47,264 nt of DNA from Treponema sp. (lineage in GTDB: Bacteria; Spirochaetota; Spirochaetia; Treponematales; Breznakiellaceae), in the NCBI GenBank assembly GCA_031281025.1, contig JAITFY010000050.1, positions 1-47,264 on the forward strand, given 5' to 3'. Each line of letters begins with the position of its first letter. Positions within the stretch are counted from its first letter, which is position 1. Shown in pieces: positions 1 to 16,918 of this stretch. Made by a program: the position numbers and the translations under genes. The notes beneath the pieces are model-generated. The model saw nothing but the letters and a program-made list of their open reading frames with translations. It was not told the origin of the DNA and searched no databases.

Positions 1-726
1 CGTATTATTTCCATTCAGGATATTAATATGGAAAAAAACAAACAATCATGGGAAATGCAGAATGTGGTTAACGAACTTTCCAGAGCCATAAGGGTGGCGG
101 ATAATAATCTGGCGGATGAACAATTAACATGGCTGCAAAATCAATTAACACAAGGAACTGCCATCCCCATGATCCAGACAAGGATGGATTGCGGCACGAT
201 GGCTTTTACAATTTTGAGTGAGGCTGTCTCCTGGTTAAAAGAAGGCCGTCCAAAAGCTCATGAAGCTTTTTCAAATGTTTACACCATGATTCAACAGCTT
301 GGCACTATAGAAGAACTAATTAAAGCGTTAAAAAATTTTGCTTCTGTTATTATCGGGCTTGTCGAAGAAACCCGTCAGGCGCATCATCAGACAATTCTGC
401 ATAAAGCAATGGCGTATATTGAAACACATTACAACGACCCTGCATTATCTTTGGAGAGAACTGCCTCAGCAGCAAACGTAAGCCAGTCGCATTTAAGTTT
501 TTTGTTCAAGAAAAAAACGCAAAGTTCTTTTCATAAACATGTAACCAAAACCCGCATTGAACGTGCAATGGCTTTGCTTAAAGAAAACGATTTTAGGACT
601 TATGAGGTAGCGGAAATGGTAGGGTACAGCAATGCGCAATATTTTAGCGTTTCGTTTAAGAAGTATACAGGTATATCGCCGCTTCAGTTCAAAAACAAAG
701 CGCCAGACATTGAGCCCGGCGCCTGA
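1..726 (+). CDS. AraC-family transcriptional regulator, 5'-truncated by window edge
   Basis: The reading frame is open from base 1, so the true start lies outside; the Met codon at 28 has no convincing Shine-Dalgarno and sits mid-protein. The last ~105 residues form an AraC DNA-binding domain with two helix-turn-helices (first around LSLERTASAANVSQSHLSFLF, second around YEVAEMVGYSNAQYFSVSFK, then the typical GISPLQFK end). The part before it is helical and not recognisable; in spirochaetes such proteins are often YesN-like response regulators, but no receiver domain is visible here. It ends 4 bp from the stop of the convergent GH28-like gene. Regulation of the adjacent surface-protein operon is a guess from proximity. 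Confidence 0.85.
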   Translation, partial: RIISIQDINMEKNKQSWEMQNVVNELSRAIRVADNNLADEQLTWLQNQLTQGTAIPMIQTRMDCGTMAFTILSEAVSWLKEGRPKAHEAFSNVYTMIQQLGTIEELIKALKNFASVIIGLVEETRQAHHQTILHKAMAYIETHYNDPALSLERTASAANVSQSHLSFLFKKKTQSSFHKHVTKTRIERAMALLKENDFRTYEVAEMVGYSNAQYFSVSFKKYTGISPLQFKNKAPDIEPGA

Positions 727-730
727 TTAT

Positions 731-3160
731 CTATTGAATATTCAACACAAACGGCAGATCTCTATTGCCCAGATTCATGTTTATCGTAAACTCTTGTCTG
801 CCTGCTGGCAGTGTTTGCAGGAAGCTTCTGTTTAGCGTTACTATGTTTCCGTTTACCGTAAAATCAGTGTCTCTTTGGAGTCTTCTTCCGGCATGACGTA
901 CATTGATAATGGCATTCCCGTTTAGGTTAACTGTTATGGGGAAGTCCGTTATGTTTGCTCTGGAAACGTTTGCCGATGAGGTTACAAGAGTGGAGTTCTC
1001 GATAAGAGTAACCCTTATGGCGGAAAATCGCATTAGAGGCGTTCCGCCAATATTGATTGTTCCTTTTCTTCTTGCCGGATTCTCCCATGAAATGTCGTAG
1101 TAGTCCCTTATCACTTCTTCGCCGTCAGCATAGATACTGATGAATGGTCCGTCGACAACAATATCAATATCGATGAACTCCATTTCCCTGTCCATGATGT
1201 TGTTTGCAACTGATAACAAACCTACCTGGAATTGTTGAGTCTGGTTTGAGTCTTTTTCTCCGTCCGCTCTGATATACGGATCAAATTGATTGATGCGTAC
1301 CCAGCCCCGGTTACTTCGTGCAAGAGCAATGGCCATTCTTTCGTGGCGGTCAACTACACGGTAGCCAATCTGTGTGTTGGCAGGTATACGGTGATCTCTT
1401 CTGCCCGGCCATACTCTTATGTGAATATGTTTGTTTTCCCATTCAGACGCTCCGGGATAATTAAGAATTAAAAATCTGTTGGATGGGGTTTCGCCTTTTT
1501 CGATTACTCTTTCTCCCTTAAAGTTACTGATTGCCCAGGCGCCAACCGGAGCTCTGTTGATATCTCTTGGCCATCTTGTGCTTCCTTCCCTGTCGTGCAT
1601 GTCTCTTTCGTCAAAGGTTTCTACAAATACGGGGGGACGATCCGGGAAACGCGGGTGATCGGTGGTGTCGATTTGCTCAGGCATGAGCGCCGCAGGAATA
1701 CCGTTAATGTTTACGATATTTTCGAAGGCATACATTGGCCTTCCTGTGTTTGCAGCGTCTACAAATGCGTTGGTTCCTTCAAAATGAAGACCGTCAACAT
1801 TACGTGCAAAAAGCCCAAAAGCCGGCATACTTCCGTATCTGTCGGCATCGGGGTAAGTTCCAATCATGCGGGGAGGTCTTGTTGTGCCTGTCCATTGTTC
1901 GTAATTGCGTACGGAAATATCTTTAAAGGTAACATTGGTAATTACGGTGCCGTCTTGCGAGTTAATCTGGCTTGCTCTGTCCGAACGATGAACAACAATA
2001 TTTTCGAAGTGTACATTGCTGACACTTCCCATATCGTGGGTATATGAAGTTGGGCGCAGACGCTGCTGTAAACCGATAAATATCGGCGTATCAATATCGT
2101 ATACAGTAAAGTTGCGGTATACCAGATTGGAAATATGTCCGCCGTCGTTTGACTGTACTGAAATAGCCGTAGTTGCATTTCTGGGGATGGTTCTGCCGTC
2201 TTCGTCTGGATGCGACGGACCTGGATGTCTTCTTACAACAATGTTTTCTACCAAAAGACCATCTAAATTAACTTGAGTGCCTGTTCCAATTTTTACCGCA
2301 TTGGTTGTTGTGGCAACTTCTCCGTTACGCACATGGACATTATGCTGGTTACGAGGGGTGTTGTTTGGCGGCCTGCGGAAATAATCCCTTTGCGGTTTGA
2401 TAACGATTGCATCGTCTCCGGTTATGATATCGAAGTTTTCGATTAAGACGTTTGATGAAGTATTGATACAAATGCCGTCTACTTCGCGTCCAACATCGTG
2501 GGGCGGATTACGAATAATAATTCCGTCTACATGTACATTGTTGCAAAGTTCTATTACAAATGTCCAGCGGACGCTATTGCGCAATGTAAGATCGTTAAAC
2601 TTTAAGTTTTCGGTATCACGAATATAGATGATGGTTTGAGGCCTGCGGCCATGCATGAATTCCCCTGATGGTCTGCCGCTGGGATCATTCGGCTGGGTAT
2701 AGTAAGGCGAGTTGAATCCGCCTGCGCCGTCAATAATTCCCTTTCCTTTAAAGGTTATATTTTCCAGGCTTTGTCCATAAAAAACAGAGAAACGCGGAGC
2801 ATTAATCTGTTCTTCGACATTGGTGGCATTGGTAAAGTTAGGCCAGTGTGATGGAGTTCTGCTTGCCTGTAAAATGGCGCCTTCGGGAATGTGAATGGTC
2901 ACATTGCTTCTTAAAATAATTGAAGTAGTGATGTAGGTTCCTGCGGGGAAGTATACTTCCACTTCTGGATCGCCATAAGCTCCTGCGGCATCCACTGCTC
3001 TTTGAATGGCTCTGGTATCATTGGTTGCGCCGTTACCTCTGGCGCCAAAGTCCATTACGTTAAAGCGGCCATCCGTTGGTGTTGACGGTCCTGCTGTCGC
3101 ACAGCCGCCAAAAATAGAAAAAACAAAAATTGCTGCAAAAATAATTGTCAATTTACGCAT
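731..3160 (-). CDS. GH28-like right-handed beta-helix lipoprotein with C-terminal CBM_X2-like domain
   Basis: 809 residues from an ATG at 3160 preceded by AGGAGG; an in-frame extension to 3346 only runs into the upstream gene. Residues 1-20 form a lipoprotein signal ending FGGC. Residues ~33-110 match the pectate-lyase-3 entry (FNVMDFGARGNG, then a PAGTY turn). The beta-helix that follows carries VDGICINTSSN and TGDDAIVIK, resembling GH28 motifs, but the GHG motif is replaced by ATTTN and the RIK motif by VKIG. The last ~80 residues resemble CBM_X2 (DFTVNGNIVTLNRSFLQTLPAG). It is the last gene of the operon, 16 bp after the barrel gene. A polysaccharide-binding or -cleaving surface protein is likely; the substrate is unknown and hydrolase activity is doubtful without GHG. 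Confidence 0.8.
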   Translation of the reverse strand: MRKLTIIFAAIFVFSIFGGCATAGPSTPTDGRFNVMDFGARGNGATNDTRAIQRAVDAAGAYGDPEVEVYFPAGTYITTSIILRSNVTIHIPEGAILQASRTPSHWPNFTNATNVEEQINAPRFSVFYGQSLENITFKGKGIIDGAGGFNSPYYTQPNDPSGRPSGEFMHGRRPQTIIYIRDTENLKFNDLTLRNSVRWTFVIELCNNVHVDGIIIRNPPHDVGREVDGICINTSSNVLIENFDIITGDDAIVIKPQRDYFRRPPNNTPRNQHNVHVRNGEVATTTNAVKIGTGTQVNLDGLLVENIVVRRHPGPSHPDEDGRTIPRNATTAISVQSNDGGHISNLVYRNFTVYDIDTPIFIGLQQRLRPTSYTHDMGSVSNVHFENIVVHRSDRASQINSQDGTVITNVTFKDISVRNYEQWTGTTRPPRMIGTYPDADRYGSMPAFGLFARNVDGLHFEGTNAFVDAANTGRPMYAFENIVNINGIPAALMPEQIDTTDHPRFPDRPPVFVETFDERDMHDREGSTRWPRDINRAPVGAWAISNFKGERVIEKGETPSNRFLILNYPGASEWENKHIHIRVWPGRRDHRIPANTQIGYRVVDRHERMAIALARSNRGWVRINQFDPYIRADGEKDSNQTQQFQVGLLSVANNIMDREMEFIDIDIVVDGPFISIYADGEEVIRDYYDISWENPARRKGTINIGGTPLMRFSAIRVTLIENSTLVTSSANVSRANITDFPITVNLNGNAIINVRHAGRRLQRDTDFTVNGNIVTLNRSFLQTLPAGRQEFTINMNLGNRDLPFVLNIQ

Positions 3161-3176
3161 ATAAAATCCTCCTGAA

Positions 3177-4763
3177 TTAAAAGTCGACTCTAAAACGAAT
3201 CGGGATTGCAAAAAACAATCTGCTGCTATCCAAATTTGATGATGTGGTAATACCGCTTGTATTAGTCCTGTTGTACGAATGGTATATACACTGGATTCCG
3301 CTCTGAAGCACAACATTGGGAGTAAAACGGTAAGTTGCGGAAGCAACAGTTGTAAGCCTGTTGTGCGCTTCCGAATCTTTTTTGCCGCCTACATCTCTGA
3401 TTACCGTACCAAATCTGTTAATTAACTGTAACGAGACATTCAACTGCCTTGTCCATCTGTAAATTACACTTGCCGAGTTATGAAACCCAAGCCATAATTC
3501 ACCTTCGTTTGGAGCAAGCATAGTTTCTGTGCCATTTACCGGCATTATCCTTTTTTGAGGATCGTTGGTGGCTTGGGTTACAGCAAAGCTAAAGTTATTA
3601 ATTGACGTGAGAGTGAACTGCGGGATGCCGGTGTATTGGACGCGGTAGTCAATGCCGTGAAAGACAGGAGCTTTGCGGGTTAAATAACCCCGGTATAATT
3701 CATGGTTGGGATCATAAAAACCAGGATCACTATATCTGGAATGACTATCTTCATAAATTCTAAACAGACAGGTATAACCCAAACCAATACCAAAACCAGG
3801 TACGCCTAAAACATTGGCATATAAACCCGCACTATGAACAGTTACACCTCTGCCGTCACCCTGTGGTTCATTAAAAGTATCAAGCGTACGAGGATCGCCG
3901 CCGCGGAATTTGTAGATTGCATCAAAAGTAATACGGTCGAAAATCCGCTCGCCGGATACACGGAAAGCTCCATTCATTCTGGTATAAGACTCACCATCTT
4001 TTACAGGAGAAATACCAGATGTTTCCCCCAAGTCACCGGCTATTGTAAATGTGAAAGGTCTTGGGTTTACCGAAAACGAAAAATAAGGCTGGTTGTAACG
4101 CCGGTATCTGTCGCCAAGCTGCATTTGTCGCAGGAAATTGTTGTTGTCAATTCCATTTAAACTGTTAAACGGATACGGAGGATAACTGCTTATACCATTG
4201 CTGCCCATATCGGGAGTAAGAACCCCGTAATTATCCAGCCTTTGAGCAAGAACCAGATCATCAAAAGCGGTATTAAAACGGACTACCCTGCCGCGATCAT
4301 TTGTTCTGCCCACATAGGCTGTAAACATTCCAAAAGTACCGCGAATAAACCATTCGGTAAATACAGTATTCAACAAAGTGTTAAAACTTACATCGATGTC
4401 ATCGTGTTCCAAAAACCCGCCCGTTCCATCATCAATTCCGTGTCCTATGAAATAATCATCCAAAGCCATTGCAACCATGGCAGTGATACCTTTCCCGTTA
4501 TTGTAATTGAGAATGAAGCGAACTTCGGTAAGTTTACTTAGAATATCTTCGCCCGTTGATGCCAGAAAATCCAATGTATTATCGCCTCTGTACGAAGCAT
4601 GGTTTTTGTTTCCCCAATCGCCAAAATTGGAAGTATACCGCATAAGTTCTGGAAAGAATTCGGCATACATATTTACCGTGAGCGGCTGTGCGTATAGACC
4701 CGGTACAAAAACACCGGCAGCTAAAACTCCCAAAACAAGGAGCGTTATAAAAAATTTCTTCAT
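3177..4763 (-). CDS. Predicted outer-membrane beta-barrel protein (paralogue of the next gene upstream)
   Basis: 528 residues. A signal peptide (MKKFFITLLVLGVLAAGVF...YAQ) is followed by alternating polar/aromatic strands typical of a porin-like barrel. The protein ends IPIRFRVDF, a C-terminal aromatic like the BAM-recognised signal. It shares many segments with the neighbouring barrel: NMYAEFFPELMRYT, the GRTND motif, DLGETSGI, the GDPRTLD loop and GVTVHSAGLYANV. The ATG at 4763 has AGGAGG 7 bases upstream. It lies 17 bp downstream of its paralogue. No characterised family is recognised; a substrate-specific porin or a spirochaetal surface barrel is the likely role. Confidence 0.75.
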   Translation of the reverse strand: MKKFFITLLVLGVLAAGVFVPGLYAQPLTVNMYAEFFPELMRYTSNFGDWGNKNHASYRGDNTLDFLASTGEDILSKLTEVRFILNYNNGKGITAMVAMALDDYFIGHGIDDGTGGFLEHDDIDVSFNTLLNTVFTEWFIRGTFGMFTAYVGRTNDRGRVVRFNTAFDDLVLAQRLDNYGVLTPDMGSNGISSYPPYPFNSLNGIDNNNFLRQMQLGDRYRRYNQPYFSFSVNPRPFTFTIAGDLGETSGISPVKDGESYTRMNGAFRVSGERIFDRITFDAIYKFRGGDPRTLDTFNEPQGDGRGVTVHSAGLYANVLGVPGFGIGLGYTCLFRIYEDSHSRYSDPGFYDPNHELYRGYLTRKAPVFHGIDYRVQYTGIPQFTLTSINNFSFAVTQATNDPQKRIMPVNGTETMLAPNEGELWLGFHNSASVIYRWTRQLNVSLQLINRFGTVIRDVGGKKDSEAHNRLTTVASATYRFTPNVVLQSGIQCIYHSYNRTNTSGITTSSNLDSSRLFFAIPIRFRVDF

Positions 4764-4780
4764 ATTATTTCCTCCTTACC

Positions 4781-6328
4781 TTAGAAGTTAATCCTGAACC
4801 GCAATGGAACAGCGACATAAACCATATTCCCGTTTATATTATTTGTTTCGGGAACCCTTTGATATTTATAAGTATCATGAAGGAACTGAATACCGCCCTG
4901 TACCATGATACTTTCATTAAACCGGTAAACAACAAAAGGCGTAATACCAAACGTATTTGTTGAAACAGTTTCGGTTGTTCCGCTGCCCGCTTTGTTTTCG
5001 ATACTGTATTTGCAATACATATTTACACACTGAAGCGCTATGATCATCCTTGGGTTCATTTCATAATTTATGCTCAATGTATTGTACAAAGCCAGCCAGC
5101 TTTCGCTTTCGGTTGTAAGAAGCGGACGCATTCCGGTAACAGAAATTGTTTGTATTCGATTATCCGAATTGCCTTTTGCAACGGCAAAGCTGATATTATT
5201 ATTGTTACTGATGGTGAACTGCCTAAAACCGGTATATTGCACACGCAAATCTACACCGCTAAAAAACGGAGAATTCCTTTCTCTCCAGGGATCTTGCGCA
5301 GATGTGAAATTACGATCACGATCTTCGTACTTTCTAAAAAGGCCGGTATAACCAATCCCAAAATTGAAGGATGGAACATCAAATATATTTGCATATAACC
5401 CAAAATTATGTACAGTTACACCTTTGCCGTCCGGCTGAGGATCCCTGGTATCGGGATCGCCGCCGCGGATTTTGTAGACAGCATCAAATGTAAAGTACTG
5501 GGCAATTCTTTCGCCGGAAATACGAAGAGCGCCATTAAGCCGGTTGTATGACTGCCATTGCTGCCTGTTTCCCCCAATTTCCGGAGTTATTCCACTGGTA
5601 TTTCCAAGATCGCCGGCTATCTGAACAGTAAACGGCTCAAAAAAGGCAGCAACAGAAAAATACGCCTGATTTACAAAACCAAATTCATCGGTTAGGTAAA
5701 GTTTGGGAAGCAAATTGTTTCCTTCGATATGATTAAACGATAGTCCCATTCTGGTATAATTAGTTTCGAGAATCATATAATCAAAAAATCCTACTCTTGG
5801 CGTAATAAGACCAAAACTGGAAATCCTTAATGCATCAAGGAAATCATCAACAGAATCCTGAAAATGATCAACCTTGCCAAAATCATCGGTTCTTCCGGCA
5901 TAGATGGTAAACATATCGATTTTTCCCTGCAGATACCATTCCCTGAAAGTTTCGTTTAACAGAACGGCATAACTGACCGTCATGGTATCATCATACATAA
6001 ATCCGCCGCCTGGCCTTATATGTTCATCTGCGGCAAGCTGGATATATGCGGACATATTTCTGCCTGTGTAATTTAAGTTGATACGAAGTTCGTTCTGTAA
6101 ACCTATAGCTCCTTCTGACGATGAAGACAGAAAATCAAAAGTTCCAGCGCCTCTGTACAAACCATTATCATGGTTCATATCTGCTAAATTGATATTTGCA
6201 AAGTCGTTAAGAGGAACAGTATAGCGCATCATTTCCGGGAAGAAATCGGCGTACATATTCATTTTGAACTGTGCAAACGCTCCTGTACTTACCAATATAA
6301 TCAGCAGTACAGGTAATAATTTTCTCAT
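4781..6328 (-). CDS. Predicted outer-membrane beta-barrel protein
   Basis: 515 residues from an ATG at 6328 with AAGGAGGG in front; upstream in-frame Met codons lie inside the preceding gene and are rejected. The signal peptide (MRKLLPVLLIILVSTGAFAQ) leads into NMYADFFPEMMRYT, then many amphipathic strands, ending VPLRFRINF. Paralogous to the barrel encoded just downstream, with the same strand landmarks (GRTDD, DLGNTSGI, GDPDTRD, GVTVHNFGLYANI), so a tandem duplication is likely. The gene starts 10 bp after the beta-helix lipoprotein gene, which implies one transcript. Export across the inner membrane and insertion in the outer membrane are inferred; function is not recognised. Confidence 0.75.
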   Translation of the reverse strand: MRKLLPVLLIILVSTGAFAQFKMNMYADFFPEMMRYTVPLNDFANINLADMNHDNGLYRGAGTFDFLSSSSEGAIGLQNELRINLNYTGRNMSAYIQLAADEHIRPGGGFMYDDTMTVSYAVLLNETFREWYLQGKIDMFTIYAGRTDDFGKVDHFQDSVDDFLDALRISSFGLITPRVGFFDYMILETNYTRMGLSFNHIEGNNLLPKLYLTDEFGFVNQAYFSVAAFFEPFTVQIAGDLGNTSGITPEIGGNRQQWQSYNRLNGALRISGERIAQYFTFDAVYKIRGGDPDTRDPQPDGKGVTVHNFGLYANIFDVPSFNFGIGYTGLFRKYEDRDRNFTSAQDPWRERNSPFFSGVDLRVQYTGFRQFTISNNNNISFAVAKGNSDNRIQTISVTGMRPLLTTESESWLALYNTLSINYEMNPRMIIALQCVNMYCKYSIENKAGSGTTETVSTNTFGITPFVVYRFNESIMVQGGIQFLHDTYKYQRVPETNNINGNMVYVAVPLRFRINF

Positions 6329-6338
6329 CTGTCCCTCC

Positions 6339-7871
6339 TTAATTAATAAGACGCCAATTAGAAGCTGTCCCGTTATCCGAATTCGGCACAGACCCATTTC
6401 CGGTATTATCAACCTGCAGTCTTAGATCATATCCCAGCCCGGCAAGATCACGGTAATCTGCTATGTCACCGGCGCCTAAATTCCTGATTTGTATACGGGA
6501 AGTATTAGAAGCTTCGATAATTGAAGGTCCTGATTTATCAAATAAAAATCCCGGCGCTCCGTGGATCTGCACTTCTTGTCTGGAACTGTTTCTGATTGTT
6601 CCGCCCGTCATAATAAACTGACCATTAAGGGTAAATCTGGGAGCATCATAAACTACACGAATACCAAAGTCATTATTGGTGATAGTTCCGCCGCTCATTG
6701 TAAAAACAGTTCCCACACTTGGCGCTAATGCGACTTGATGCTGGCAGGCACAGTTATATCTGGCTGCTGCACGGCCTGCGCCAAATCTGACGCCGGTATG
6801 GTTATTGGTTTCTTGATGGCTGATAACTCCGCCGGTCATGGTAAATGTATTATTCAGACCTTCCAGCAATACGCCATGCCCGGCGTTTCTGGAAATAAGC
6901 CCGCCCGACATTGTAAATTTCCCATCTTCACTGTCTGGACTAAAGCGAACACCATGCCTGGAATTATCGATGATGCTGCCGTTAAACAAGATAACTTCGC
7001 CTCCTCTGATATTTATCGCATGGTTACCGCTCCTTGTATCGCCTGTTTCGTGGGATATTCCCAAAAACCTGTTAGTTAAGACAGTTTCACCTCGAATTTC
7101 GAGCTTCCCGCCTGTTCTTACCGAGATAAGGTCGCTTGTACTTTGAACATTTGCGGCGGAACTTTCGATAAAAATATCGTCCAATATAAATGTAACTACT
7201 GAACCCGTTTCTGCTTGTATAATAAATAAACTTCTTCCATCATCTACGCATCTTGATTCTTGCGCTACAGGTTTCCAGGTTATTGTATTTTCCCGTGTTC
7301 CCAATATTCTAATGCTGATTGTTTTATCAAAAGTTTCCGGGACAGTAAAATTTACAAAATCTTCTATATCCTCTCCAATAAACAGGATATATTCATCCTG
7401 AGGGGTACCACCTTGTGCATGAGCCAAAATATTATTTAATTCCGCAGTTAGCTCTGCTGCATTTACAGGAGCAGCAAAAGCTGTAACTATGGTTACAACA
7501 GCAGTATTTTCGTAATAACGAGGATAGTCAAAAATTGTTTTGGCTGTAATGGTAAGCGTTGTATTTGTTTCGTTTTCACATACTGCCAGTAAACCGGTAT
7601 CCACATTAATTGACGTACCGCCGCAGCCGCCAATACCTCCGGGACAGACCGGAGTTGTTCCGGCAACAGACCAGGTAACGGCTCTTGTTGCTCCGCCTGT
7701 GGTATGTACCACTGGTCTGAATGTAAGGCTTTGGTTATGAACCATTGTTTTTGTATCCGGTTCTATCTCTATACTAAAAATCCGTTCCTCTTCTGGCTCT
7801 TGATTACAGGCGCTAAAAATAATTGCTGACAGTATCAAAAAAGCAAAAGGAAGGAAAAAAATCTTTTTCAT
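6339..7871 (-). CDS. Surface lipoprotein with Ig-like domain and right-handed beta-helix
   Basis: 510 residues from an ATG at 7871 with AGGAGG close upstream. A lipoprotein signal ends FSAC (residues ~17-22). Next comes a Big_2-like Ig domain of ~100 residues (IEIEPDTKTMVHNQSLTFRPVV...VTWSVAG). Residues ~130 to the end are a parallel beta-helix with units such as KFTMSGGLISRNAGHGVLLEG and VFTMSGGTITNNDFGIRV. A cluster of Cys residues (CPGGIGGCGG, CACQ) is unusual for this fold. The architecture parallels the larger lipoprotein encoded just upstream, without its duplication. A cell-surface adhesin or glycan-binding role is plausible but not shown. Confidence 0.75.
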   Translation of the reverse strand: MKKIFFLPFAFLILSAIIFSACNQEPEEERIFSIEIEPDTKTMVHNQSLTFRPVVHTTGGATRAVTWSVAGTTPVCPGGIGGCGGTSINVDTGLLAVCENETNTTLTITAKTIFDYPRYYENTAVVTIVTAFAAPVNAAELTAELNNILAHAQGGTPQDEYILFIGEDIEDFVNFTVPETFDKTISIRILGTRENTITWKPVAQESRCVDDGRSLFIIQAETGSVVTFILDDIFIESSAANVQSTSDLISVRTGGKLEIRGETVLTNRFLGISHETGDTRSGNHAINIRGGEVILFNGSIIDNSRHGVRFSPDSEDGKFTMSGGLISRNAGHGVLLEGLNNTFTMTGGVISHQETNNHTGVRFGAGRAAARYNCACQHQVALAPSVGTVFTMSGGTITNNDFGIRVVYDAPRFTLNGQFIMTGGTIRNSSRQEVQIHGAPGFLFDKSGPSIIEASNTSRIQIRNLGAGDIADYRDLAGLGYDLRLQVDNTGNGSVPNSDNGTASNWRLIN

Positions 7872-7888
7872 TGTTCCTCCTGAAAATG

Positions 7889-7913
7889 CCACCCCCTTGC
7901 GGGGGTGGTTTTT
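7889..7913. repeat. Intergenic GC-rich hairpin between the two beta-helix lipoprotein genes
   Basis: CCACCCCC and GGGGGTGG form a perfect 8-bp stem with a 4-base loop (7889-7908), followed on the plus strand by five T. The flanking genes read on the minus strand, where the stem is preceded by A's and followed only by CATTTT, so it is not a classic terminator for them. It may act as an RNA-stability or attenuation element between the two cistrons. A short GGTGA/TCACC hairpin (7916-7930) lies beside it. Confidence 0.5.
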
Positions 7914-7932
7914 GTGGTGATTATATCACCAG

Positions 7933-10509
7933 TTACGGTACTGCAGGTCCGACCCAATTTTGATCTGCGATCGCTTCTACATCTGCAAAGTTTCCAACGA
8001 ATTTATCGTCTGCTCCAATTTCTAATATACGTCTAGAATGTGAACCATTTGAATGCACACCGGCTGTGGTATCCCGAAGCTCTATAGAAGCTGTTGTATT
8101 TGGAGTTCCTCCACTGTTTCCAGTTATGATACCGCCCGTACCTTTTATGTCAATTCTGGCATTTCTCTGTCTTTCAATTCTTACACCAACTGCGTTTCCG
8201 CTGATAGTCCCCCCCCACATTACAAAGGAAGAATTCGCATTGTTTATACGCACACCTGCAACAGAAGTTCCAGTTATTGTTCCACCAAACATGGTAAATG
8301 TGGAACCTGTCTGTATACGTACACCTTCTCGTCCTACTGTATTAAAAGTTCCGCCTGTCATAAAACCGACACCATTGTCCCTAACATCTACGGCAGCACG
8401 GGAATGGTTTTTAATGATTGTATCTTCTTTTACTACAATAGTTCCTATTTGGGTATTATTATCTACTCTAATTAAATCACTACCAGTATTGGTATTTGGC
8501 ACGTTGGAACCCATTTCAATAGTAACATTCTCCAATATGAGAAATCCTCTTCTAACTCTTAGTAAGGCAGTAGCACCTGTATTATCGTTTGCTGGTGGAT
8601 TCGGCTGATATGTAATTGTATTACCATCTCCATATAGTATTATAGTAACATTGTTTACAGCCATATCGGGAAGTGCTGTCGTTACAGTCACATCATCTGT
8701 AAGATTGATACGGTGTACCCCTGCGGTACGATCTGTAAATGCAGCACGAAGTTCCGCTTCAGTACTTGCAGTGTGTATATTCGCTCCAGTAACATCCTGC
8801 GCAGTTACCGGTATTCCTACAGGATCACCAGTAGCCGGAGTAGCTGTAATTATTAGCGTACTAGCAGTTTCGTTTGCAGCGATTGTTAAGAAGCCTGTAG
8901 GGTGAATCTTTGTACCGGATAATGTGCTGCCAGTCATATTCCATGTAACCTCTACATCTGCTGCAATGCCTAGCTCAACGTTGGTAAATTGCCGGAAAGC
9001 ACCTTTGTGCAAAGATGGATTCGACAAGGTTGCCGTTGCTATACCATATGAAGTGATGGGATTTGTTGCGCAGGCAGCTTTAACAATCAAGGTAGCGTTA
9101 GATTCTTCTGCATCAACAAACAATACGTTACCTTCCATCTTTGTACCACCTGCAAGAGTTGATGTTTCACCTTCGGAATCAGTTACGGACCATTGAACCG
9201 TTGTCGTAGTGCCGCTGGCGACAACGGTAGCGGTAAAAGCCTGAGATAGACCTCTCATCACTGTTGGTGTCGCTGGAGTTACATAGATACCAAGAATCTC
9301 TCCCATAGGATAATTGTCGTTGGCTCCAAAAGCCTCAACAAAAAAGAAATGAGGCTGAACAGGTGCATCAACTCTTATTGCTCCTTTGAGGTTTGGGTCT
9401 CCTTGCCCGTTATCGTTATTTGTGCCATCATCGTCTCCGTTGATAATCCCGCCAGTTTTGGTAAAGCTGCCATTCTCATGTATTCTGACCCCAGCTCCTG
9501 TCGAATCTGTTATGAGCTCATCATCTGAACCGGAAATAATACCGTCTGTCATTATAGCGATTCCGTCGTTACGAACACGTATTCCTGTGCCGTTATCTTT
9601 AATAAATCCGCCTTTTATTTCTGCTTTATTAGGAGTGGCAGCCTGATTACCACGTACAGTTACACCATGAAAGTTGCCGCTAATGGTTCCGCCATTCATG
9701 GTAAAGGTACCATTTCTGCCGCTGTTATGAAGCAACACGCCAGCAGATTGGCCGCCTGTATGCAGCCAGCCACTAATAGTTCCGTCGTTCATTATGAATG
9801 TATTGTTCCATTGGGTTATATTTACACCACTGGCATCATCTCTTGTAGGAGTAGTAAAAGTAGAATCGCCTCTATTAATAGTTCCGCCATTCATGGTAAA
9901 AGTACCGCCTGGGAAAGAGCTGTTGTTTTGTTCAGAAGATGACCTTAGCATAACCCCGAATTCCCATAGATTTTCGATAAGGCCGCTTTCCATAGTTACA
10001 TTCCCGCCTTCGATGTTAATACCATTAACTAATTCCCCGCCATCAATATTTACGTTGGTCAATTTGATGGTTCCACCGATATCCGCCCTAAGAACAGCTT
10101 GAGTGTTCCCTGCAGCGGTATTTTTGCCAAATTCTGCTTCTTCATCAAAAAGAAGTGTTACATTTCTCAGATCAAGGGATGCAGCTTGCCTCATCCTGAA
10201 CATGGCTGTAGCAGTAACGATATCTTCATCATCTTCTTCTGGTAACCACGTAATGGAATAATCGCCTCCAATTACGGTAATTTTAAACGCTCCATTGAAA
10301 TCAATACCGGGAAAATCTTCGATATCTTCTGTAAGTGTAATTGAATATACACCCGGTAAACCGGCAATTCTGGCCATTTCACTTGCGAAATTGTCCTGGT
10401 CTAATGTTAAATAAACTGTATCATCTCCCAGACCTCCTCCACATGCCATCAAAAGACTAATTACCACCGCAAAGGCAATAATTCCAAAAGGTTTTAAAAA
10501 ACTTTTCAT
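7933..10509 (-). CDS. Large surface lipoprotein: beta-helix, two Ig-like domains, second beta-helix
   Basis: 858 residues from an ATG at 10509 with AAGGAG 8 bases upstream; a 15-residue in-frame extension is rejected. The lipobox is LLMAC, followed by GGG. Order: an N-terminal region beginning TVYLTLDQDNFASEM, beta-helix one with about six FTMNGGTIxxx turns (to ~residue 400), a first Ig-like domain (IYVTPATPTVMRGLSQAFTA), a second less typical one, then beta-helix two from about residue 600 (repeats GSTFTMFGGTITG, SSFVMWGGTISG). The two halves look like an internal duplication. This is the first gene of the five-gene operon. No catalytic motif is seen; an adhesin or glycan-capture role is inferred. 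Confidence 0.75.
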   Translation of the reverse strand: MKSFLKPFGIIAFAVVISLLMACGGGLGDDTVYLTLDQDNFASEMARIAGLPGVYSITLTEDIEDFPGIDFNGAFKITVIGGDYSITWLPEEDDEDIVTATAMFRMRQAASLDLRNVTLLFDEEAEFGKNTAAGNTQAVLRADIGGTIKLTNVNIDGGELVNGINIEGGNVTMESGLIENLWEFGVMLRSSSEQNNSSFPGGTFTMNGGTINRGDSTFTTPTRDDASGVNITQWNNTFIMNDGTISGWLHTGGQSAGVLLHNSGRNGTFTMNGGTISGNFHGVTVRGNQAATPNKAEIKGGFIKDNGTGIRVRNDGIAIMTDGIISGSDDELITDSTGAGVRIHENGSFTKTGGIINGDDDGTNNDNGQGDPNLKGAIRVDAPVQPHFFFVEAFGANDNYPMGEILGIYVTPATPTVMRGLSQAFTATVVASGTTTTVQWSVTDSEGETSTLAGGTKMEGNVLFVDAEESNATLIVKAACATNPITSYGIATATLSNPSLHKGAFRQFTNVELGIAADVEVTWNMTGSTLSGTKIHPTGFLTIAANETASTLIITATPATGDPVGIPVTAQDVTGANIHTASTEAELRAAFTDRTAGVHRINLTDDVTVTTALPDMAVNNVTIILYGDGNTITYQPNPPANDNTGATALLRVRRGFLILENVTIEMGSNVPNTNTGSDLIRVDNNTQIGTIVVKEDTIIKNHSRAAVDVRDNGVGFMTGGTFNTVGREGVRIQTGSTFTMFGGTITGTSVAGVRINNANSSFVMWGGTISGNAVGVRIERQRNARIDIKGTGGIITGNSGGTPNTTASIELRDTTAGVHSNGSHSRRILEIGADDKFVGNFADVEAIADQNWVGPAVP

Positions 10510-10997: not shown

Positions 10998-12266
10998 ATG
11001 ATACTAGAAATCCGATTAGAAAATTTTTATTCGATAAAAGATGAGGTTTTTCTTGATTTTCGGGCAGAAAAGATAAATACTGAGACAGCAAAGGTTCTCT
11101 CAGAGAATACCATTGATTATAATGGACAAAAAATTCTTAAGAGTATCGGACTTTTTGGAGCAAATGCTTCTGGAAAATCGAATATCATAAAATCAATCAA
11201 TAGATGTTGTCAGATAGTGCTAAATTCTCATACTAACAATGAAGGGGATATTTTTAATTTTTCTACATTCAAGTTTGGAAATTATTCAAACCTTCCGAGT
11301 TCTTTTTCAATAAATTTTACCATTGATAATACTGAATATGAGTATTCTTTTTCGCTTACCCGAACAGAAATAATTAAGGAAAGTTTATACTATTATCCCA
11401 ATGGGCGCAGAGCAAAAATATTTACTCGTGATGAAACAAAGGGAAACAATAAACAAAAAATATATAATTTCTCCAATGGTCATATTCCACGTCCCTTCGA
11501 TGTGGCTATTAATACAAGTAAGAAAACCCTGTATCTGAGCCGGGCAAGTCAAATGGATAGAGAGTTATGTAAAAAGCTATATAGATTTTTTAAACATGAT
11601 TTTTTAATTGGGTTTGCTCCATTGGATTACATACAATCAGGGCTTAGAGATGTAAAAAAAGTTTTTTCAGAAAACAAGAATATTATTCTTCACGCACTTT
11701 CCATCTGCGATAGTGATATTTTAGATGTTAATATTGTAAATGAAAAACAGAAGTTTTTTCTACCTGATGCCTCTTCCAGTGCTTATTACGAACAAAACAT
11801 TGATTCACATAGATTTGAGACATTCCATAAAGCCGCTCCAGAAATATCATTTGATTTGCTCAGCGAAGAATCTGCCGGAACAACACAATTATTCAATATG
11901 CTTTTCGTTCTTTTGGATGCAGTAAAAAACGGGAAAACATTCATATTAGATGAGTTTGATTTAAGCCTACATGCCAAATTAGCGGAATTTGTCATTGACT
12001 TATTTCATGCTAGTTCAACTGCTCAATTCATTTTTACTTCCCATAACACTAGCCTGATAAATGTAAAACGTTTCCGTCGTGATCAAATATTGTTTGTAAA
12101 TAAAAAAGATGATAGCTCAACAGAACTTTACTCTTTATTCGATCATAAAGATTTCCGCGAAAACATGGATGCCGAAAAAGGATATTTACAAGGACGATTT
12201 GACGCTATACCTATAATTGATAATTCTGCAACCAACATAAGAAAATTACTAGGGGAGCAGAATTGA
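10998..12266 (+). CDS. AAA family ATPase, AbiLi-like (ABC/SMC-type, COG1106)
   Basis: 422 residues. The N-terminus MILEIRLENFYSIKDEVFLDF is the typical entry of this family. Walker A GANASGKS is at residues 54-61, a signature-like ESAGTTQL lies about residue 292, then Walker B FILDEFDLSLH and a switch-like FIFTSHNTSLI. ATP-driven dimerisation of an SMC-type head is expected from the family. The next gene encodes a RloB/TOPRIM protein 7 bp downstream; this pairing is known from AbiL and, more distantly, PARIS-type anti-phage systems, where the ATPase senses and controls a nuclease-like partner. Defence is therefore inferred. It uses a normal Shine-Dalgarno, unlike many genes around it. Confidence 0.85.
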   Translation: MILEIRLENFYSIKDEVFLDFRAEKINTETAKVLSENTIDYNGQKILKSIGLFGANASGKSNIIKSINRCCQIVLNSHTNNEGDIFNFSTFKFGNYSNLPSSFSINFTIDNTEYEYSFSLTRTEIIKESLYYYPNGRRAKIFTRDETKGNNKQKIYNFSNGHIPRPFDVAINTSKKTLYLSRASQMDRELCKKLYRFFKHDFLIGFAPLDYIQSGLRDVKKVFSENKNIILHALSICDSDILDVNIVNEKQKFFLPDASSSAYYEQNIDSHRFETFHKAAPEISFDLLSEESAGTTQLFNMLFVLLDAVKNGKTFILDEFDLSLHAKLAEFVIDLFHASSTAQFIFTSHNTSLINVKRFRRDQILFVNKKDDSSTELYSLFDHKDFRENMDAEKGYLQGRFDAIPIIDNSATNIRKLLGEQN

Positions 12267-12273
12267 GGTTAAT

Positions 12274-12831
12274 ATGAAAAAGAAACGTAACCAAAGACCA
12301 CCAAGAAAAATGAAACCTGTTTATCTTGTATTTTGTGAAGGCGAAACCGAAGAAGCTTATATCAATTTACTCAGACAAAAATGCCGATGGCTACCATTAA
12401 AAGTTATCTCACGCATAACAGGGCAAGCAATATCTCCAAGTATCATTAATAAATACATCAAAGCAGAGCAGATTGGTCCTAATGATCCGATAACAACGTT
12501 TTTAATGTATGACCTTGATACAGAAAACATCATGGAAAAACTTAATCAATGTAAGGGGTCAATAATCCTAACAAGTAACCCAGCAGTAGAATTATGGTTT
12601 TTATTACATAACACCGAACAGAATGCTTCAATCTCTACAGATAGTTGTATAGACAAATTGAAAAATGTATCTTCAGACTGGAGTCAATATAAAAAAGGTA
12701 CACTTTCAGAAAAACAAAAACAGATACTTTGGGATAATCGTAAAATTGCAATTACCCGTTCTAAATGTTTACGTGAAGGAGGAAACCCTTCTTCCTTGAT
12801 ATACCGTCTGATTGAAAGACTAAAACACTAG
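12274..12831 (+). CDS. RloB-like TOPRIM-fold protein, AbiLii-like effector
   Basis: 185 residues beginning with a basic stretch (MKKKRNQRPPRKMK), then VYLVFCEGETEEAYI with the family's Glu cluster at residues 22-27, FLMYDLDTEN with a DxD at residues 80-82, and NPAVELWFLLHN. These are the conserved blocks of the RloB family (PF13707), which has a TOPRIM-like metal-binding core. Translation is probably coupled to the ATPase 7 bp upstream. The stop codon TAG at 12829-12831 straddles the island boundary, so its last two bases belong to the tRNA-derived repeat. Predicted nuclease-type effector of an abortive-infection pair; not demonstrated. Confidence 0.8.
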   Translation: MKKKRNQRPPRKMKPVYLVFCEGETEEAYINLLRQKCRWLPLKVISRITGQAISPSIINKYIKAEQIGPNDPITTFLMYDLDTENIMEKLNQCKGSIILTSNPAVELWFLLHNTEQNASISTDSCIDKLKNVSSDWSQYKKGTLSEKQKQILWDNRKIAITRSKCLREGGNPSSLIYRLIERLKH

Positions 12832-12850
12832 CGGGAAACGGGAGTCGGAC
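12830..12850 (-). repeat. att-like direct repeat, right copy (inside intact tRNA-Gly)
   Basis: The 3' 21 bases of tRNA-Gly including the discriminator, identical to 10742-10762. It marks the right junction of the defence island. Confidence 0.75.
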
Positions 12851-12901
12851 CCGCGACATCAACCTTGGCAAGGTTGCGCTCTACCACTGAGCTATTCCCG
12901 C
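12830..12901 (-). tRNA. tRNA-Gly (anticodon GCC)
   Basis: A cloverleaf fits on the minus strand: acceptor GCGGGAA pairs with TTCCCGC, the D arm is GCTC-AGTGGTA-GAGC, the anticodon stem CAACC/GGTTG holds loop TTGCCAA with anticodon GCC, and the T arm is GCGGG-TCCGACT-CCCGT. The discriminator is T; CCA is not encoded. The loop TCCGACT departs slightly from the usual TTCGAAT. Its 3' end is the insertion site of the defence island, and its original terminator appears displaced about 2.1 kb. Confidence 0.95.
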
Positions 12902-12911
12902 GCTTTTTTCA

Positions 12912-12940
12912 ACTTTAATAAAAAAGGGGGAAATTGTCAA
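12912..12940 (-). promoter_or_regulatory. Promoter of tRNA-Gly
   Basis: On the minus strand TTGACA (12935-12940), a 17-base spacer and TAAAGT (12912-12917) end ten bases before the mature tRNA 5' end. Confidence 0.6.
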
Positions 12941-12964
12941 GGGTTATTTTGGCCGCATCTAAAA

Positions 12965-13960
12965 TCAAGACATTTTTAACACTTTTTCGATTTTTTCCAG
13001 TTCTTCGGAAGAAAGCGGAGGTTGGGAGATGGCGGTAAGGTTTTCCCTAAGTTGAATAGAAGAACTGGCGCCTATCAGTACACTGGTGTTTCGTTGATCG
13101 CGCAGTATCCACAGGATTGCAAGGGCGGAAAGCGTGCAACCTCTTTCTTTTGCAATTTCGTTCAGCATATTCAACTTTTTAAGCAGCCCCGGCGTGATCA
13201 AAGTTTCTTTGAGAGATTTTTCTCTAAAAGCCCGCGAACCTTCGGGGATAATGCCGTCCAAATACTTGTTTGTCAAAAGCCCCTGGGCAAGAGGCGAAAA
13301 ACAAATGCAGCCTGCTCCTTCTTTTTCGATTTCCTCCAGCAGTTTGTCTTCGATCCAGCGGTTCAACATGGAATAGATTGGCTGATTAATAAGGCATGGT
13401 ACTCCAAGAGTGCGTAAAACAGAAAATGCCTGTGTACTTTGTTCTGCATTGTATTTTGATATACCAACATAAAGCGCTTTTCCCTGTTTCACAATGTCTG
13501 CAAGAGCGCCCATTGTTTCTTCGATGGGAGTATCCGGATCGGGGCGGTGACTGTAAAAAATATCAACGTAATCCAATCCCATTCGTTTTAGACTCGCATC
13601 TAAACTGGTAATAAGGTGCTTTCGGCTTCCCAAATCGCCATAAGGCCCCGGCCATATACGACAACCAGCTTTTGTGGATATAACGATCTCATCACGGTAA
13701 GGTAAAAGATTTTCCTTTAAAATGCGGCCAAAGGTAATTTCTGCAGAGCCGAGCGGCGGCCCGTAATTATTGGCAAGATCAAAGTGAGTTATACCTGCAT
13801 CAAAAGCTGATAAAACTGTTTCGCACCCTGTTTCGTAACAGTCGACACCGCCAAAATTTTGCCAAAACCCAAGTGAAAGTTCGGGTAATTTTAACCCGCT
13901 TCTGCCGCAACTGCGGTACTTCATCACTTCATAGCGATTTTCTTTTGCACTGAATGTCAT
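12965..13960 (-). CDS. Aldo/keto reductase (YghZ-like, NADPH-dependent)
   Basis: 331 residues from an ATG at 13960 with GGAGG upstream. An AKR (beta/alpha)8 barrel with GRSGLKLPELSLGFW near the start, DLANNYGPPLGSAE containing the catalytic Tyr, a Lys in VISTKAGCRIWPG, the YSHRPD His motif and a C-terminal cofactor segment (ILRDQRNTSVLIGAS). The insert CRIWPGPYGDLGSRKHLI resembles the YghZ/AKR14 branch, which reduces glyceraldehyde 3-phosphate or other aldehydes. The gene follows the peptidase-barrel gene by 26 bp on the same strand and may be cotranscribed; the physiological substrate is unknown. Confidence 0.85.
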   Translation of the reverse strand: MTFSAKENRYEVMKYRSCGRSGLKLPELSLGFWQNFGGVDCYETGCETVLSAFDAGITHFDLANNYGPPLGSAEITFGRILKENLLPYRDEIVISTKAGCRIWPGPYGDLGSRKHLITSLDASLKRMGLDYVDIFYSHRPDPDTPIEETMGALADIVKQGKALYVGISKYNAEQSTQAFSVLRTLGVPCLINQPIYSMLNRWIEDKLLEEIEKEGAGCICFSPLAQGLLTNKYLDGIIPEGSRAFREKSLKETLITPGLLKKLNMLNEIAKERGCTLSALAILWILRDQRNTSVLIGASSSIQLRENLTAISQPPLSSEELEKIEKVLKMS

Positions 13961-13986
13961 CTTTATCCTCCATAAATTAAAATCAA

Positions 13987-16836
13987 TCAATAACGTAAAT
14001 TAAAACCTAAACCAAATCCCCAGGGATTACCCTCTCCGTTTATTGTATTTGAAAACTTCCACGCTGCCCAGATATCCGGTTCCAGAAAAAATGGTACGGG
14101 CTTAAATGGAATCACAGAAGATACCAAACCCATTTTTAACACTAACGATTGGGCAAGACGTAAATCGTTTATTTTTATTCCTTCGGCATCTATTTGACCA
14201 TCGCTGTCGTATAATACACTTCTTAATGCAAGTGCGCCAAAAAACCTGTTAAAATAAACATGCGAAAAATTGTTTTGAATCTCAAAGGAAAAGAGTCCTG
14301 CGGATACTTCACCGCCGGCAAGCCAGGTATGACTACGGGGGCCGGAAGCATATTCTTCTGATGCAACTCTGATAAACACAGGCTGACCATATATTGATCC
14401 GCCATGAAGATCCATTCCAGATTTATCGTAAGCTCCGTAAAGCGTCAGGCTTAAAGGAAAACGGATTTCTGCATTTGCACGTAAAACTCCATCAAAACGA
14501 GGTTCAAAACTATCAACAATATTTAATCCCCTTAAATTAAAAGTAAAACCTGTTCCAAACATTTCATGCTGACGTCTGCGGTTATTGGAAAATAATAAAC
14601 CTGCGCCATAAAAAAAGATGTTTCCCGTTTCATCCCATTCATAAGCGCTTTTTCCGTCGATATAGCTGGCTTGACGTACATAACCTGCACTCAAAGATGT
14701 CGCATAATACCATCGTCCTGGATATCTGATAAAACTGCCGGTTAGTGTCAGCCTGGTATCACGATAGAGTTCGTTTGCAGTATTGGACATTATCTTGTCA
14801 GAAAAATTCACTAACAATGGAAAACCCATAACGGTATTTTCCCATAGGAAATTTTCAAAAACAGCCATACGGTAAGTGATATCTGCATAAGCCATAACTA
14901 CAATTAAATGTCTGTCTGTAGCATCCATCATTAAGGAAAATAGTCCCGCGCCATCAGCGCTTAACTTTAATTTATCATCAATGGTGTTAGCTCTTATCAA
15001 AGGCAAGGGAAACCAGAATTTAAAAGGGTTCATGTATGAAAGACTTAGATAACGATTAGAAGGCAGGGAATATTCATCAGGGGCTGCCGCTTGGGAATTT
15101 TCATTATTCACATTCACCAGTTTTATTTCGACTCTGGTTCCTGACATTGAGCTTGTTGTTTCGGGGAAACGTAAAAAGCCATCGCCGGAAAAAAATATCC
15201 CCCTGTAGTAGACAGTACCGTCTACGGAAACAGGGTTAAAAACACCGCCGGAAAAATCTCTGCCGCTAAAGACAGCCTGCATTGTTTCGATGTCTATGTA
15301 GCTGAGCTTGTACATACGGTCATCGGCATTATAGCCAAAAAAAATTTTACCATCCGATACTCCCAAGCCTCGCATAAATTTATTGTCCGATTCTCCGTTT
15401 TCATCGAAGCTTTCAATGCGGAAAAGTTCTTTAGAAGCATAATTGTAAAGCAACAATTCACGTATGCCGTTACGTGCTGCAATAAAAACGATCCTGTCGT
15501 TATCCAGAGCTTGCGGCCCCGAAAACATAAGTGTTTCGCTTCCGCTAAAAAGGATTTCGCTGTTTCCGTTAAAATCTTCGTATACGATATTGGTATTGTG
15601 TAACTGTGAACGTATCCCAATAACTCCATCGCGAAAGTATCTTGCTTTGTAAAGGCCCTGAATACTCCGGCCTGTTCTGCGTCCAGAAAATGCGTCATGT
15701 TCGATTACGATTGCTTTGTAGCGGTCACCTGTTAGCTGATAACCTGACACAAGAATTAAGTCTTCACCGGCGGATACATCAAGATCATTGGAAACAAACA
15801 AAGCAGAGTTAAAGTTGCGGACACTTCCGGTTATGGTGTCATAGGCATGGATTTTTCCTTCAGAGCCGGAAAGGACATAAACAGTCCTGTTTCCTGCTGC
15901 AAGTGCAGAAATTGTATTTCTTCTTTCAGAGAAAAAATGTTTTTGCACTGGAAAAACTTCATCTGGATTTTCTTCCAGGTTGTTTAAAGCAAGTGAATGT
16001 TTAAAATCGTTCCAAACATCAAGAAAATCCATCGCATATACATTTTTAAAAATACTATAAAAACCAGATCGATATACAAAAAAAGAAGAACGGGCATATT
16101 TGCTTCTTCCCATGGCTTGCCAAAGTTCTGCGTATTTTTCCATGCCGTAGTTTTGTATAAGCCATGTGGAAAAAATCCCGCCGTACTCATACCAGTTGCC
16201 TCTCTGACCGGGATAATCGTAAACACCCGAGACCTGAAAAGGTGAGGGAAATCTATCTTCATGGATTGCCTGCCTGAGTATTTGTTTTATCCGCGGATCG
16301 TTAGACCTGCCAAAACCAGCAAGGCTTTCAAAAGCTATTGTGACACCTTCTATCATAAACGCCGGTGTATTAAAAGCAGCAGGCGTAACCCAATAACCAA
16401 AAATACTTTGAAGAAAGCGAAAAAAGGGGCCTCTTGTATTCAGCGAGATCGCATGTGCCAGCTCATGAATAAAAAGACCTTCCAGGTTATCTGCAAAACT
16501 TGTCCATTCTAAATCCATGGGCGTATCAAAAAGCACAATGTGTGGATATGGAACGGGATTGTAATACCCATTAAACATATCTGTATGAGGAACAAAAGTT
16601 ACCGGAATACGGCCAGGAACCTCTATTCCCAAAAGTTGGCTCATTTGTTCATAAAGACGATCCGCATAAGAAGCCAGTTGTCGTGCGGAAGTTTCGGATT
16701 CTAATGGAAAAATTATATCAAAGTATTCTGTCTTTATAACCCTAAAAGAAGTGAAGGGCTTAAAAAGCTGAGCCTGGACAGGGAGCGGTGCAAAAACAAA
16801 CAGCATCATAAGCAGAATAATACATTTGTGTTTCAT
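13987..16836 (-). CDS. Predicted zinc peptidase / beta-propeller / outer-membrane barrel protein
   Basis: 949 residues. Signal peptide residues 1-23 (...APLPVQAQ). Residues ~30-300 form a gluzincin-like domain with HELAH at 124-128 and a following FMIEGVTIAFES that supplies the third Glu ligand. The middle ~300 residues contain TolB/WD40-like repeats (VYVLSGSEGKIHAYDTITG). The last ~350 residues have alternating amphipathic strands and end GFGLGFNLRY, typical of an outer-membrane barrel. There is no Shine-Dalgarno; a TACAAT box lies 6 nt before the ATG at 16836, so the mRNA is probably leaderless. A surface-exposed or periplasmic protease anchored by its own barrel is inferred. Confidence 0.75.
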   Translation of the reverse strand: MKHKCIILLMMLFVFAPLPVQAQLFKPFTSFRVIKTEYFDIIFPLESETSARQLASYADRLYEQMSQLLGIEVPGRIPVTFVPHTDMFNGYYNPVPYPHIVLFDTPMDLEWTSFADNLEGLFIHELAHAISLNTRGPFFRFLQSIFGYWVTPAAFNTPAFMIEGVTIAFESLAGFGRSNDPRIKQILRQAIHEDRFPSPFQVSGVYDYPGQRGNWYEYGGIFSTWLIQNYGMEKYAELWQAMGRSKYARSSFFVYRSGFYSIFKNVYAMDFLDVWNDFKHSLALNNLEENPDEVFPVQKHFFSERRNTISALAAGNRTVYVLSGSEGKIHAYDTITGSVRNFNSALFVSNDLDVSAGEDLILVSGYQLTGDRYKAIVIEHDAFSGRRTGRSIQGLYKARYFRDGVIGIRSQLHNTNIVYEDFNGNSEILFSGSETLMFSGPQALDNDRIVFIAARNGIRELLLYNYASKELFRIESFDENGESDNKFMRGLGVSDGKIFFGYNADDRMYKLSYIDIETMQAVFSGRDFSGGVFNPVSVDGTVYYRGIFFSGDGFLRFPETTSSMSGTRVEIKLVNVNNENSQAAAPDEYSLPSNRYLSLSYMNPFKFWFPLPLIRANTIDDKLKLSADGAGLFSLMMDATDRHLIVVMAYADITYRMAVFENFLWENTVMGFPLLVNFSDKIMSNTANELYRDTRLTLTGSFIRYPGRWYYATSLSAGYVRQASYIDGKSAYEWDETGNIFFYGAGLLFSNNRRRQHEMFGTGFTFNLRGLNIVDSFEPRFDGVLRANAEIRFPLSLTLYGAYDKSGMDLHGGSIYGQPVFIRVASEEYASGPRSHTWLAGGEVSAGLFSFEIQNNFSHVYFNRFFGALALRSVLYDSDGQIDAEGIKINDLRLAQSLVLKMGLVSSVIPFKPVPFFLEPDIWAAWKFSNTINGEGNPWGFGLGFNLRY

Positions 16837-16889
16837 ATTGAAATTGTACCCTAAAACCTCTAAAAATTTAAAGGTGATTATTTTTATAC

Positions 16890-16918
16890 TTGACAGTCGT
16901 AGTAATATGTTATACAAT
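16890..16918 (+). promoter_or_regulatory. Promoter of the padR operon
   Basis: TTGACA at 16890-16895, a 17-base spacer, and TACAAT at 16913-16918. The ATG at 16929 is only ten bases past the -10 box and has no Shine-Dalgarno, so the leader is minimal or absent. PadR proteins usually repress their own promoter; no clear palindromic operator is seen. Confidence 0.7.

Follow-up and report, generated by a model that had tools for sequence, protein, structure and literature searches.

A five-gene treponeme operon of two porin-like barrels and three lipoproteins: a candidate TonB-independent glycan-acquisition locus

Operon organization

The window analysed here is a stretch of 47,264 nucleotides that forms one complete contig of the 2.35-Mb genome of a gut spirochaete from a treponeme lineage common in termites; its relatives in the public record are Treponema and Spirochaetia MAGs. 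It carries a five-gene operon that probably constitutes a TonB-independent, SusD-free, PUL-like locus for glycan acquisition. The operon occupies positions 10509 to 731 of the minus strand in the order LP1, LP2, B1, B2 and GH28-like, with intergenic gaps of 61, 10, 17 and 16 bp and a purine-rich ribosome site ahead of each gene. The initial annotation had described five close-set genes on one strand with secreted products only; its coordinates are right, the gaps span 10–61 bp, and all five products are exported. Transporter and catabolic genes are absent from within the operon. The reading draws on the sequence for the five co-oriented exported proteins, the paralogy of B2 and the GH28/CBM_X2 lipoprotein, and on a structure model for the porin-like fold of B1. 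The features are as follows:

10509-7933, minus strand: LP1, 858-aa lipoprotein; lipobox LLMAC, TMxGGxI-type repeats (beta-helix-like), Ig-like middle at residues 401-562
7865-7935, minus strand: LP1-LP2 intercistronic stem-loops; two hairpins ahead of the LP2 ribosome site, one with a GC-rich stem of 8 bp
7871-6339, minus strand: LP2, 510-aa lipoprotein; lipobox IFSAC, GG-type repeats related to those of LP1
6328-4781, minus strand: B1, 515-aa outer-membrane barrel; signal ...GAFAQ, C-terminal ...PLRFRINF, porin-like model, no plug
4763-3177, minus strand: B2, 528-aa outer-membrane barrel; signal ...GLYAQ, C-terminal ...PIRFRVDF, paralogue of B1
3160-731, minus strand: GH28-like lipoprotein, 809 aa; lipobox FGGC, GH28 beta-helix at residues ~30-430, C-terminal CBM_X2 at 734-799
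1-726, plus strand: C-terminal part of an AraC-type regulator; frame open from base 1, truncated at the contig end and pointing towards the operon

The AraC-type regulator may control the operon. The stem-loops between LP1 and LP2 have a folding energy of -27.8 kcal/mol (z -4.4), and the same stem scored as terminator-like on the plus strand; they are possibly an attenuation or mRNA-processing element and may set LP1 apart in expression. A promoter scan of the operon region returned a number of sites not above that in shuffled sequences.

Directly upstream, on the opposite strand, lies an AbiLi/AbiLii-type defence pair (AAA_21 ATPase plus RloB, 10998-12831), adjoined by a tRNA-Gly at 12830-12901. 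Positions 13987-16917 hold an ORF of 976 aa with no match in Pfam, NCBIfam or PADLOC. The genes from 10998 to 16917 (this other-strand AbiL/RloB pair, the tRNA-Gly, an aldo/keto reductase and the 976-aa ORF) were considered as operon partners and rejected.

Fold of the barrels B1 and B2

The two barrels are full-length paralogues in tandem that are 39% identical across their whole length (E 2e-117), are sisters in the barrel tree with 100/100 support, and both end in Phe (...RINF in B1 and ...RVDF in B2), as initially annotated. B1 was modelled by AlphaFold2 from an alignment of ten relatives. The model is all-beta and of moderate confidence (mean pLDDT 67.7, pTM 0.70), its strands start directly after the signal peptide, and it has no plug and a porin-like form of about 18 strands, a number that the model does not fix. 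Its best structural match is OccK2 with bound glucuronate (Z 19.9, rmsd 3.5 over 296 residues), followed by maltoporin (Z 19.7), OpdQ (19.5), the sucrose porin ScrY (18.9), AlgE (18.3) and chitoporin (17.4); AlgE, MOMP, maltoporin and chitoporin were also listed by Foldseek. A predicted structure other than a barrel had been named beforehand as an outcome that would overturn the annotation, and the outcome was the opposite.

As modelled, B1 would be a single-chain barrel without a plug, of the 18-strand porin type (Z 17-20). In this it resembles the substrate-specific porins of Proteobacteria (LamB, ScrY, OprD/Occ, AlgE, ChiP), with which it aligns over ~300-345 residues, whereas B1 and B2 are spirochaetal, have no detectable sequence relation to those porins, and belong to a family linked to lipoprotein glycosidases at its own locus. 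By sequence, B1 gave a sub-threshold Pfam match to OMP_b-brl (E 0.0065) and no phmmer match among PDB sequences. Pfam detected neither a Plug nor a TonB receptor family in B1 or B2, and no TPR family in the barrels.

Lipoproteins LP1 and LP2 and the GH28-like protein

The initial annotation spoke of three lipoproteins with beta-helix and Ig or CBM_X2-like domains, and this holds most firmly for the GH28-like protein. The latter matches GH28 (PF00295, 5.5e-23), a rhamnogalacturonase/epimerase beta-helix family (1.4e-19) and CBM_X2 (1e-14) in Pfam. Its VDGI and TGDD motifs align with 5olp and 3jur, so that the three catalytic aspartates, at the Asp and Asp-Asp positions, are kept. The Gly-His-Gly and Arg-x-Lys motifs of GH28 were not recovered in the pairwise alignments, which are weak there, and for this reason the uronate specificity of the protein is doubtful; it also scores far under the NCBIfam cut-offs of named enzymes. 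Compared with the GH28 polygalacturonases and rhamnogalacturonases 5olp, 2uve and 3jur, the protein shares the beta-helix domain and the Asp and Asp-Asp positions, but differs in being a lipoprotein, in its C-terminal CBM_X2 and in the unrecovered His and Arg-x-Lys.

For LP1 and LP2 the term beta-helix derives from their GG-type repeats and not from a structure model, the LP2 model being of low confidence (pLDDT 42.6) and set aside. The two proteins have repeats in common (E 2e-11 by sequence comparison). LP1 reaches the Pfam Beta_helix family only under the cut-off (E 0.017), LP2 matches nothing in Pfam, and the names that the Pfam and NCBIfam libraries offer for the pair are all sub-threshold; neither library recognised a catalytic domain in either protein. 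No named Ig family matched LP1 or LP2, and the Ig-like call for LP1 derives solely from the recurrence of residues 401-562 in other treponeme proteins; it is chiefly across this region that the relatives of LP1 align.

Distribution and linkage of the barrel family

By profile search, 7 of the 40 genomes sampled from the genus carry the barrel family, as do 34 of 120 from the taxonomic family, some of the latter matches being weak and partial; it also occurs in another family of the order. We read the neighbourhoods of 42 barrels and scored a barrel as linked when a same-strand lipoprotein, called by pattern, lay within 150 bp; control genes were taken from the same loci. By this rule 18 of the 42 barrels adjoin a lipoprotein, whereas 16 of the 112 control genes do (p = 2.7e-4). 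The count is conservative in places, as the rule missed the GH98 beside L061:7318 and the GH18 beside L119:7688, and biased elsewhere, as lipoprotein-linked barrels were among the seeds of the profile. Furthermore, most of the genomes are fragmented MAGs, so that unlinked barrels at contig ends may in reality be linked.

The linked state clusters on the barrel tree, with 6 changes as against 13.8 in shuffles; one clade of 8 rows is linked throughout and one of 12 rows is unlinked throughout. The clade that holds B1 and B2 comprises 11 rows, only 3 of which are linked (B1, B2 and L026); most of the barrels nearest to B1 and B2 stand alone. Searches of the genus with B2, LP1 and the GH28-like protein as queries recovered no other instance of the exact five-gene set. 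The annotation had suggested a search for conserved co-occurrence, and would have given way had barrels and lipoproteins been found mostly apart: the association is sustained at the level of the family, which is often lipoprotein-linked, but it does not extend to the nearest relatives of B1 and B2 or to the five genes as a set. In the loci that were read, 8 of the 10 ORFs with at least three repeats of the LP1/LP2 type are no more than two genes away from a barrel (3.4 expected, p = 0.003), and three genera (L018, L102 and L105) have the order repeat lipoprotein, beta-helix lipoprotein, barrel.

Glycosidases and sugar genes beside related barrels

In other Treponematales the barrels share operons with glycosidases that are lipoproteins and belong to several unrelated families. 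Beta-helix lipoproteins resembling the GH136 lacto-N-biosidase are co-operonic with barrels at six loci that have a motif in common, three of them tested (L016, L018, L103) and three assigned by the shared motif (L017, L102, L105); at L017 a GH29 plus F5/8C is co-operonic as well. GH98 lipoproteins are paired with barrels twice at locus L061, which belongs to another family of the order; the two pairs (5219-8583 and 11828-15376) have opposite orientations and lie within about 10 kb. EndoH-like GH18 lipoproteins are co-operonic with barrels at L118 and L119, and a sugar-binding protein and a GH130 also stand beside the L119 barrel; with an FGE-sulfatase-type lipoprotein nearby, positions 1575-12190 of L119 are likely an N-glycan locus.

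Genes for sugar import and catabolism occur in some of the loci. On one strand of L105 (404-14697) a repeat lipoprotein, a GH136-like lipoprotein and a barrel are followed by UxuA (mannonate dehydratase), a protein of the mannitol-dehydrogenase type, a PfkB kinase, a beta-glucuronidase-like GH2 and a sugar-binding protein, a run that spans from a surface-type glycosidase and barrel to hexuronate catabolism. The L029 barrel is preceded by a pair of ABC permeases, by a lipoprotein that stands where the binding protein would be (no Pfam match) and by a GH4. Other barrel neighbours include a GH2, an ABC permease, Ig-like lipoproteins and a calcineurin-like phosphoesterase. That a single channel family should be paired time and again with enzymes from unrelated families is the pattern expected of a glycan-entry porin.

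Proposed function

We propose that LP1, LP2 and the GH28-like lipoprotein reside on the cell surface, a location assumed throughout, where the repeat and Ig domains would hold a polymer that the GH28 domain would cut. Short products would then diffuse through the B1 and B2 porins into the periplasm and from there enter the cell by an ABC importer whose genes lie elsewhere. More generally, barrels of this family would admit through the outer membrane whatever glycan the neighbouring lipoprotein enzyme cuts. The substrate of this operon is likely a pectic or similar polymer, to which we make no commitment because the uronate-holding motifs of GH28 were not recovered. Several points weigh against the proposal: the moderate confidence of the barrel model, the 3 linked rows among 11 in the clade, the exact gene set that was recovered nowhere else, the want of a transporter or catabolic gene in the operon, and the chance that its lipoproteins may be periplasmic instead of at the surface.

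Ig-like and repeat architecture is frequent among surface adhesins, and the operon could encode an adhesin or surface coat. The repeat and Ig lipoproteins would then fasten the cell to gut particles, protists or epithelium, the beta-helix of the GH28-like protein would bind without cutting, and the barrels would serve as general porins or as surface antigens. The architecture of the lipoproteins, the want of a catalytic domain recognised by Pfam or NCBIfam in LP1 and LP2, the unrecovered canonical His and Arg-x-Lys of GH28 and the many barrel relatives that stand alone are all consistent with such a role. We nevertheless regard it as unlikely, since a CBM_X2 together with a GH28 domain that has its Asp residues, and the unrelated glycosidases beside related barrels, are better explained by glycan use, and some barrel loci contain sugar import and catabolism genes.

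Less likely is a role of the barrel in exporting or flipping its partner lipoproteins to the surface in the manner of Slam, with the glycosidases as cargo and not as suppliers of substrate, and we consider it improbable. Slam genes often adjoin those of their substrates, and spirochaetes, in which no Slam homologue is known, nevertheless display lipoproteins on their surface (PMC7857515); an exporter would explain why the same pairing recurs between a single barrel family and lipoproteins of very different folds. Slam, however, combines a barrel of 14 strands with TPR repeats (PMC7857515); neither is seen in B1 or B2, and the resemblance is confined to a barrel gene adjoining lipoprotein genes. 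The B1 model lacks a periplasmic domain, TPR or other, and its matches are diffusion porins. The barrels of the 12-row clade have no adjoining lipoprotein, nor do most of those nearest to B1 and B2, and some of the same operons include sugar import and catabolic genes. A neutral gathering of unrelated exported genes in a lipoprotein-rich lineage, with no common function, would suit the high background (lipoproteins are about 11% of control genes, and 16 of 112 controls have a lipoprotein neighbour) and the unconserved five-gene set, but is very unlikely given the 10-17 bp gaps between four of the genes, the tandem paralogues, the clustering of the linked label on the tree and the cassette order that recurs in three genera.

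Relation to known systems

The initial annotation likened the operon to SusCD in its glycan capture and uptake. The glycan role is supported by the context of the barrel family, in the form of co-operonic lipoprotein glycosidases from several unrelated families and, at some loci, of ABC importers and catabolic genes; the operon itself includes the GH28/CBM_X2 lipoprotein as a putative surface glycosidase. The SusCD mechanism is not supported. SusD (PF14322) was found in 0 of 40 genomes of the genus, with a positive Bacteroides control, and neither Pfam nor NCBIfam detected SusD in LP1 or LP2. TonB-plug proteins are present in 38 of the 40 genomes, and the genome of the window has one on another contig (C35), so that the absence of a plug is a property of the operon and not of the organism. 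Membership of SusC/SusD was therefore rejected on the plug, the length (515-528 aa), the fold and the absence of SusD; with a plug-less porin-like barrel and no SusD in 40 genomes, the term SusCD-like fits in logic only. The likeness to a SusCD PUL of Bacteroidota lies in the joining of surface-type glycosidase and binding lipoproteins with an outer-membrane channel in one operon, where the enzyme varies and the channel family stays. Here, however, the channel is a plug-less protein of 515-528 aa that is not TonB-dependent, the barrels are in tandem, and the genus sample has no SusD.

Spirochaetes contribute to fibre digestion. In the termite hindgut they are the most abundant bacteria (PMC13067680), and CAZyme gene clusters for cellulose and xyloglucan have been described in termite-gut Treponema (PMC6298952). 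The latter are, like the operon, spirochaetal clusters for glycan breakdown and use, whereas porins and SusC did not turn up in a text search of that paper. The passage of long glycans or their fragments across the treponeme outer membrane appears to be little studied, and we found no description of spirochaetal porin plus glycosidase loci in the open-licence literature. If the proposal is correct, passive porins with surface enzymes would be a second solution to a problem for which Bacteroidota use the TonB-powered SusCD. The barrel family would then be a genomic handle with which spirochaetal glycan loci could be found and their substrates predicted from the neighbouring enzyme, including loci seemingly aimed at N-glycans (EndoH-like plus GH130), at blood-group-like or type-1 chains (GH98, GH136-like) and at glucuronides. 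It is a more doubtful conjecture that the barrels are a family of spirochaetal outer-membrane devices dedicated to the adjoining lipoproteins, either as a lidless, TonB-free counterpart of SusC that docks surface glycosidases or as a long-sought Slam-like lipoprotein exporter.

The genome of the window has a second barrel of the family on contig C158 (L059, 7435-10555), which is followed by a fibronectin-III lipoprotein truncated at the contig end. The latter shares 34% identity with the N-terminal part of the EndoH-like GH18 lipoprotein of L119.
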